Part shown: piece after piece, positions 45,908 to 47,567 of the stretch
Layout: each line of letters begins with the position of its first letter
Position numbering within the stretch: position 1 is the stretch's first letter
Notes under the pieces: generated by a model
Database searches by the model: none
What the model was told of the DNA's origin: nothing
The model's input: only the letters and a program-made list of their open reading frames with translations
Program-made: the position numbers and the translations under genes
Source of the DNA: Allobosea sp. 117
Lineage (GTDB): Bacteria > Pseudomonadota > Alphaproteobacteria > Rhizobiales > Xanthobacteraceae
Direction of reading: 5' to 3'
NCBI RefSeq assembly: GCF_000702305.1
Contig: NZ_JNLC01000015.1
Location: 110,001 to 174,000, forward strand
DNA length: 64,000 bases

Positions 45908-46765
45908 TCATCCGAAGCCGAGCCGGCGCCGCACCTCCTCCGCCGTGACGGCATCGGCACGCTGCTCCTTCAGGCTGGCCGAGCCGATTGATTTCGAGAG
46001 CTTGCGCCCCTGCGCGTCGCGGATCAGGTCGTGGTGGCGATAGACGGGCGCCGGCAGGTCGAGCAGATGCTGCAGCAGCCGGTGCACCGACGTCGCCGCC
46101 TTCAGGTCCTCGCCGCGCACCACATGAGTGACGCCCTGCAGAGCGTCGTCGACCACCACGGCGAGGTGATAGCTGGTCGGCGCTTCCTTGCGGGCGATCA
46201 CCACGTCGCCCCATGCCGCCGGATCGGCCCGCACCAAGCCATCGCCCTCCTCCGCCCAGTCGAGCGGCGCCCCGGCGGCGGCGATCGCCTGCGCCATGTC
46301 GAGCCGCAGCGCATAGGGCTCGCCGGCGGCGTGGCGACGCGCGCGCTCCTGCGCGCCCATGGAATCGCGTCCGAACGGGAACAGCGGCGCACCGTCGGGA
46401 TCGCGCGGCCAGGCCGCCCGCGCCTCCACCGCCCGGCGGATGTCGGCGCGGCTCTCGAAGCTCTCATAGACGAGGCCCATCGCGTCGAGCCGGGCGAGCG
46501 CGGCGGCGTAGTCCGCCATGTGTTCGGATTGCCGGCGCACCGGCATCTCCCAGCCGATGCCGAGCCAGGCGAGCTCCTCATAGATTCCGGCCTCAAACTC
46601 CGGCCGGCAGCGGGCGGGATCGATGTCCTCGATGCGCAGCAGGAATCGCCCGCCGCCCGCCTTCGCCGCCTCGAAGTTCAGAAGCGCCGAATAGGCATGG
46701 CCGAGATGCAGCAGCCCGTTCGGGCTCGGGGCGAAGCGGAAGGTCGGACGGGCGGCGGCGCTCAT
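45908..46765 (-). CDS. gluQ: Glutamyl-queuosine tRNA(Asp) synthetase, zinc site absent
   Basis: 285 residues, a truncated class I GluRS catalytic core without the anticodon domain. HIGH-like '[18 protein letters not shown]' near 18-35 and KMSKS-like 'RKLSKS' near 255-260. GluQRS attaches glutamate to queuosine at position 34 of tRNA(Asp). The usual zinc motif Y-x-C-x-C ... Y-x3-C is replaced: the ligand positions read S102, E104, F129 and R133, so the zinc finger is lost altogether while the surrounding sequence ('SRADIRRA', '[11 protein letters not shown]') aligns well. It starts 19 bp after sdhB. Confidence 0.88.
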
Positions 46766-46784: not shown

Positions 46785-47567
46785 TCAGAACTGGCGCGCC
46801 ACCATCATCTTCTTGATCTCGGCGATCGCCTTGGCCGGGTTGAGACCCTTCGGGCACGCCTTGGCGCAGTTCATGATGGTGTGGCAGCGATAGAGGCGGA
46901 ACGGATCCTCGAGGTCGTCGAGCCGGTCGCCGGTCGCCTCGTCGCGGGAATCGATCAGCCAGCGATAGGCGCCGAGCAGCGCCGCCGGGCCGAGATAGCG
47001 GTCGCCGTTCCACCAATAGCTCGGGCAGGAGGTGGAGCAGCAGGCGCACAGGATGCACTCGTACAGACCGTCGAGCTTCTCGCGGTCGGAGCGCGACTGC
47101 GGCCATTCCTTCTCCGGCGCCGGCGTCTGGGTGTGCAGCCACGGCTCGATCGAGGCGTGCTGGGCGTAGAACTGGGTGAGGTCCGGCACCAGGTCCTTCA
47201 CCACCGGCATGTGCGGCAGCGGGTAGATGTTGACGCTCTTGGCCGTCACGTCGTCCATGCTCTTGAGGCAGGCGAGCGTGTTGGTGCCGTCGATGTTCAT
47301 CGCGCAGGAGCCGCAGATGCCCTCGCGGCAGGAGCGGCGGAAGGTCAGCGTCGGGTCAATCTTGTTCTTGATGTAGATGAGCCCGTCGAGCACCATCGGC
47401 CCGCAATCGTCGCGGTCGACATAATAGGTGTCGACCTGCGGGTTCTTCCCGTCGTCCGGGTTCCAGCGGTAGATCCGGTACTCGGTCAGGTGGTTGGCGC
47501 CGGCCGGCTTCGGCCAGACCTTGCCGTCCTGCATCTGCGAGTTCTTGGGAAGCGTGAGCTGAACCAT
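46785..47567 (-). CDS. sdhB: Succinate dehydrogenase iron-sulfur subunit
   Basis: 260 residues. Ferredoxin-like N-domain with the [2Fe-2S] ligands in '[16 protein letters not shown]' plus 'LAC', and the C-domain with '[16 protein letters not shown]' and '[17 protein letters not shown]' binding [4Fe-4S] and [3Fe-4S]. It passes electrons from SdhA flavin to the quinone site. It starts 27 bp after sdhA and ends 19 bp before gluQ. Confidence 0.97.

Follow-up and report, generated by a model that had tools for sequence, protein, structure and literature searches.

Zinc in GluQRS and related synthetases

The glutamyl-queuosine synthetase GluQRS of Escherichia coli carries the motif CXCX11YX3C together with a bound zinc (PMC4381286, Table 1). 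The fourth ligand is a point of difference between sources, as PMC12736043 names Cys101, Cys103, Cys119 and His118. According to Table 2 of PMC4381286 (groups summed), the motif is missing from 15 of 61 Glu-Q-RS and from 119 of 212 bacterial GluRS, and GluQRS without a zinc motif is thus already known as a kind. The same article reports that E. coli GluRS is as functional as the wild type when it carries the zinc-free domain of Burkholderia thailandensis. E. coli GluQRS with mutated ligands undergoes slow aggregation that is reversed by glutamate or ATP (Ray 2014, as related in PMC12736043), which suggests that zinc can matter to this enzyme type. The tyrosine that binds zinc is further described as stacking on an arginine in the second beta strand, numbered 116 in Thermus GluRS; it does so in structures with and without the metal, that of E. 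coli Glu-Q-RS among them (PMC4381286, section 25). A literature search, with subscription journals largely outside its scope, found no report of a purified and tested zinc-free GluQRS and no paper mapping zinc loss across Hyphomicrobiales; the supplements of PMC4381286 might contain such a map.

A gluQRS gene without zinc ligands

The window analysed here is a stretch of 64,000 nucleotides from Allobosea sp. 117 (Xanthobacteraceae). On its minus strand, an open reading frame that starts with ATG runs from 46,765 to 45,908 and encodes a GluQRS (tRNA glutamyl-Q(34) synthetase) of 285 amino acids with none of the four zinc ligands; frame 1 of the plus strand is interrupted by a stop over the same interval. 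The protein belongs to the NCBIfam equivalog NF004315 (384.8 bits, cut-off 250), and it scores under the respective cut-offs of the remaining GluQRS models, such as TIGR03838 (209.9 against 276.7). The only Pfam match, PF00749 (GluRS/GlnRS catalytic domain), spans residues 10-267, and the protein combines a class I catalytic domain bearing HIGH and KMSKS motifs with the absence of an anticodon-binding domain. These two motifs, already noted in the first-pass annotation, read HLGH (residues 20-23; 46,697-46,708, minus strand) and KLSKS (residues 255-259; 45,989-46,003, minus strand). An AlphaFold2 model reaches a mean pLDDT of 94.6, with block means of 93-98 for residues 91-160, and since it contains no metal, its confident fold says little about zinc. 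The PDB matches listed by Foldseek are GluRS, GluQRS and GlnRS, and they comprise both zinc-bound and zinc-free structures, the zinc-free GluRS entries 4g6z, 1j09 and 2ja2 among them.

Among named records, three Ancylobacter sequences (L033-L035) come closest, with 68-75% identity. Upstream of gluQRS, across a gap of 19 nucleotides, lies sdhB (46,785-47,567, minus strand; NF004616, 382.6 bits, cut-off 228). With flanks of mostly 1.5 kb, sdhB was seen next to gluQRS at all seven other genus loci and in only 2 of 120 loci outside the genus (L122 and L128, both of family f16 and differently arranged). Elsewhere in the genome, the search returned two GluRS-like genes in addition to gluQRS (L002 and L003, on contigs C2 and C16). 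Both were scanned over their matched parts only: L003 exceeds the GluRS cut-off with 347.5 bits against the 289.95 required, and for L002 the GluRS model is the best-scoring one, at 256.3 bits, which is under that cut-off. Their ligand positions read A-E-Y-A (L002) and C-A-Y-W (L003), that is, the full motif is absent and the tyrosine kept in both.

The zinc-ligand positions

We compared the protein with an alignment of 303 distinct GluQRS sequences, in which 116 rows have the full motif (zinc-type), 186 lack it (zinc-free) and one, L043, is unreadable at residue 104 and excluded from both classes; as rows were classed by the motif itself, ligand conservation among zinc-type rows is no evidence in its own right. 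The 45 family rows derive from 41 of 116 matched genomes (119 searched) and from four more genomes met in the order search. A further 149 order rows and 87 class rows are the subsets read from genomes with a gluQRS match, which numbered 225 of 249 in the order and 144 of 241 in the class. The best 30 matches per search were read first and others were picked by hand for family spread, weak matches included, and many families are represented by only one or two sequences. Identical rows were removed (L190, L301, L303, L307 and L310), and in the rows taken from G278 and G458 an internal stop was written as X and the translation continued past it.

C101, C103, Y115 and C119 of E. coli K-12 GluQ (b0144, L300) align to S102, E104, F129 and R133 of the window protein, exactly as the first-pass annotation had read them and in agreement with the CXCX11YX3C given in Table 1 of PMC4381286. 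The alignment is anchored here, because flanking residues are kept in both row types (R106, P130 and R154; Y100 in 97% and 90%). Together with R154, the four positions fall in a putative zinc-binding domain of residues 100-156 (46,298-46,468, minus strand), delimited by the E. coli alignment, conservation and pLDDT. The protein thus lacks the CxCx11-28Yx3C of zinc-binding GluQRS and belongs with the Glu-Q-RS without zinc motif, group II in Table 2 of PMC4381286. The residue aligned to the disputed His118 is G132 and is not a ligand either. S-E-F-R is common to the window protein, four genomes of the same genus and the three Ancylobacter records. Arg occupies position 133 in all eight genus members read, and K or R occupies the adjoining position 134 in 115 of 116 zinc-type rows; R133 may therefore be the flanking arginine moved by one residue instead of a replacement of cysteine by arginine. 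Under either alignment of R133, cysteine is missing at the last ligand position.

Zinc or another metal might still be bound through other residues, and the domain or its surroundings offer E101, E104, D108, D122, D124, D134 and H145. Furthermore, 39 of 143 order rows keep C102 along with Y, H or W at position 133, which leaves room for partial sites in other members. Against such a site speaks the composition of the domain itself, which has no cysteine and a single histidine (H145), C53 being the only cysteine of the whole protein. A structural zinc site built from acidic residues and one histidine would be unusual, and we give metal binding of this sort a slim chance.

Functional constraint

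Decay of gluQRS under relaxed selection is another reading of the missing ligands, and part of the record fits it. Over the 28 pairs of genus members, omega of gluQRS (Nei-Gojobori) lies between 0.15 and 0.41 with a median of about 0.30. This is about twice the omega of the sdhB control in the genus (median 0.137, range 0.075-0.209) and also above that of zinc-type pairs (0.19 in three pairs; the fourth pair is saturated); four close zinc-free pairs of the family gave 0.13-0.24. The putative zinc domain has a higher dN than the rest of the protein in 17 of the 28 genus pairs, which are not independent of each other. Some relaxation in the gluQRS of this genus is accordingly possible.

Yet omega stays below 1 in all 28 pairs and the reading frame is intact, and the comparison of omegas indicates a gene that is constrained, less so than sdhB, and in this genus somewhat less so than in other pairs. 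At the active site, zinc-type and zinc-free rows keep H20 and G22 at 99% and 100%, respectively, and K258 at 97% and 100%. There are 53 positions conserved in at least 95% of zinc-type rows; in the zinc-free rows, conservation is less than 90% at G131 and the four ligands and nowhere else among these. Of the 53, the window protein shares 46; the exceptions are the four ligands, G131, which is F in all eight genus members, and D64 and G272. The latter two, otherwise conserved at 97-99% in both row types, have become E and A in the window protein and in none of the seven other genus members, a point that does lean towards decay. The match to gluQRS in 225 of 249 order genomes points the other way.

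The genome also appears to encode what a queuosine-modified tRNA-Asp substrate calls for: Tgt, TIGR00276 and QueA score over their cut-offs, and a tRNA-Asp with the anticodon GUC is present (L298:1473-1549). TIGR00276 we take to be QueG. With an omega of 0.15-0.41, intact active-site motifs and this set of genes, decay is unlikely, and its chance is about as slim as that of metal binding through other residues. The preference of the first-pass annotation for a stable zinc-free form over decay is thus favoured by the omega values, the catalytic motifs, the queuosine genes with tRNA-Asp and the predicted fold. Its further suggestion that the zinc finger positions the tRNA acceptor region is not supported: GluQRS acts on the anticodon, so that this argument is borrowed from GluRS.

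Also improbable is a move of the protein to another substrate or function. GluQRS is a GluRS paralogue and this genome holds two further GluRS-like genes, but we found no support for such a move, and the near-invariant catalytic positions, an NF004315 score well above its cut-off and the presence of the queuosine genes and tRNA-Asp(GUC) all oppose it.

Distribution of the zinc motif

Counted by kinship to the window genome, the full motif occurs in 0 of 5 rows of the genus, 0 of 40 in the rest of the family (0 of 45 for the whole family) and 24 of 149 in the rest of the order; farther out it occurs in 80 of 87 rows from the rest of the class, 8 of 8 phylum rows and the one E. coli row, and among the named records in 3 of 13, one of which is unreadable. 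For the whole order this amounts to 170 of 194 rows without the full motif and 24 with it, as compared to 7 of 87 without it elsewhere in the class. By families, 42 of the 47 sampled in the order contain only rows without the motif, three, namely f6, f21 and f39, only rows with it, and two, f13 and f29, are mixed, and the motif is present in 64 of 70 class families outside the order. Ancylobacter, Rhizobium, Aureimonas and Methylopila are among the named rows that lack the motif.

Read from these sequences, a zinc-free GluQRS is the norm for the order as sampled, and the missing ligands are an old, stepwise loss common to most of its sampled members and not a local oddity. The loss is therefore far from singular; besides the 42 motif-less families, Table 2 of PMC4381286 had already counted such enzymes.

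Three irregularities were met among the sampled genomes. Genome G152 (family f35) has two GluQRS copies, L148 and L181, which are 57% identical and both motif-less (C-A-Y-S and C-A-Y-H); its assembly may be mixed. L036/L037 concern a contig filed under an Acidobacteriaceae metagenome-assembled genome (MAG); its GluQRS shares 99% identity with the one in a Xanthobacteraceae MAG that belongs to the same isolate series, probably by binning error, or else by very recent transfer. In the same-family genome G007, gluQRS (C34:35496-36274) appears as two overlapping match pieces, which reflects a frameshift or a sequencing error.

Order and number of losses

Rows of the same family outside the genus have Tyr at position 129 in 40 of 40 cases; 39 keep the tyrosine alone, and one (A-E-Y-C) also the last cysteine. 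In this lineage the loss of the cysteines would therefore have preceded that of the tyrosine, which contradicts the earlier statement that all four ligands were lost together. Elsewhere in the order, the first cysteine and the tyrosine persist as C-A-Y-Y (15), C-A-Y-H (14) and C-A-Y-W (10) among 143 rows. Among the 186 zinc-free rows, residue 129 is tyrosine in 152, phenylalanine in 19, histidine in 2 and non-aromatic in 13, and eight of the 19 Phe rows are members of this genus. By these counts, Phe129 is a later, genus-level change common to the eight members read. That the genus lost the four ligands jointly and recently would match the differences at all four positions in the window protein and in the seven other members, but it is the least probable of the readings considered: the motif is absent from every one of the 40 same-family rows beyond this genus, all of which have Tyr129, and 28 of 303 rows, several other families included, keep none of the four.

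In the tree the genus is a supported group (five rows, SH-aLRT 96). The zinc state needs 14 changes on each of two trees, one of them a quick tree on 114 rows and both with weak branches, and 10 on a reduced set, which omits long or divergent rows and every zinc-free row from outside the order. On this reduced set (50 against 33 rows) the topology test does not reject one clade for all zinc-free rows (p-AU 0.443), and therefore both a single loss and several losses are compatible with the tree. Parsimony on the FastTree tree counts five losses, one large and four of single rows, along with nine apparent regains. Because a regain of three cysteines is implausible, these apparent regains are more likely due to weak branches, gene transfer or several losses. 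A single deep loss of the zinc motif is one of the histories that these trees allow.

Possible substitutes for zinc

Thermus Arg116 aligns to the segment before the tyrosine and not after it, and for this reason the identity of the stacking arginine is not certain. Our candidate, on conservation, is R154, which is an arginine in every readable row (all 116 zinc-type and all 186 zinc-free, 302 of 302) and lies in a predicted strand of residues 152-155. Taking the published structures and conservation together, the tyrosine was probably retained for the stacking of its ring on an arginine, with R154 as the candidate. An aromatic residue at 129 is found in 173 of 186 zinc-free rows; the other 13 keep R154 nonetheless, from which it follows that the ring-arginine stack is not indispensable. 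Phe129 would keep the ring and drop the zinc-binding hydroxyl, and we infer that this is tolerated. As for a salt bridge between E104 and R133, a basic residue (K or R) is present at 133 or 134 in 43 of 51 rows with E104, 58 of 77 with A104, 34 of 51 with L or M at 104 and 115 of 116 zinc-type rows, which gives no clear pairing signal, and this pair figures only in the more far-reaching version given below.

Altogether, we hold it likely that this is a working GluQRS of alphaproteobacterial type, which places glutamate onto queuosine-34 of tRNA-Asp without zinc and whose metal site decayed in steps; its activity we infer, and its zinc-free folding is predicted. The three cysteines would have been lost early, around the base of the order. 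The tyrosine would then have stayed as a structural residue, its ring on a conserved arginine, probably R154, until the genus lineage exchanged it for phenylalanine, with the ring kept and the zinc-binding hydroxyl gone. Ordinary packing instead of metal is predicted to hold the small domain together, and the zinc-free enzyme would glutamylate queuosine-34 of tRNA-Asp.

A more far-reaching version is that the order has a zinc-independent GluQRS whose end state in this genus replaces the metal by an F129-R154 stack and perhaps an E104-R133 bridge, with the GluQRS and GluRS-like enzymes of the lineage zinc-free altogether; we regard this as doubtful, although not far-fetched. If such zinc-independence of the order or genus were true, the lineage would have freed both GluQRS and its GluRS-like enzymes from zinc. 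What is new here is small: a map of the motif over the order, a stepwise series with Phe as its last state, and two GluRS-like genes of the genome that lack the full motif. It nevertheless illustrates that a metal site which looks lost in a single gene can be a long-standing character of an entire order. The natural gradation from the full site through first Cys plus Tyr and Tyr alone to Phe also lends itself to testing the need for zinc in GluQRS and GluRS.

Comparison with known systems

The closest described enzyme, E. coli GluQRS/YadB (PDB 4a91 and 1nzj), belongs to the same family and likewise consists of the catalytic domain only; its ligand positions and R154 can be aligned to the window protein, with a Foldseek E-value of 4.0e-20 to 4a91. 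It differs in having CxCx11Yx3C and a bound zinc (PMC4381286, Table 1), in a counted span of 26 residues where the window protein has 47 (105-151), and in a gene that follows dksA, whereas the window gluQRS follows sdhB. The group II Glu-Q-RS of Chongdar et al. 2015 (15 of 61, as tabulated in PMC4381286) resemble the window protein in lacking CxC..Yx3C. In the zinc-free GluRS of B. thailandensis (4g6z), Thermus thermophilus (1j09) and Mycobacterium tuberculosis (2ja2), the same domain is folded without zinc and the tyrosine lies on an arginine, as PMC4381286 describes; these enzymes, however, are full-length, use tRNA-Glu as their substrate and keep the tyrosine, whereas the window GluQRS has phenylalanine in its place.
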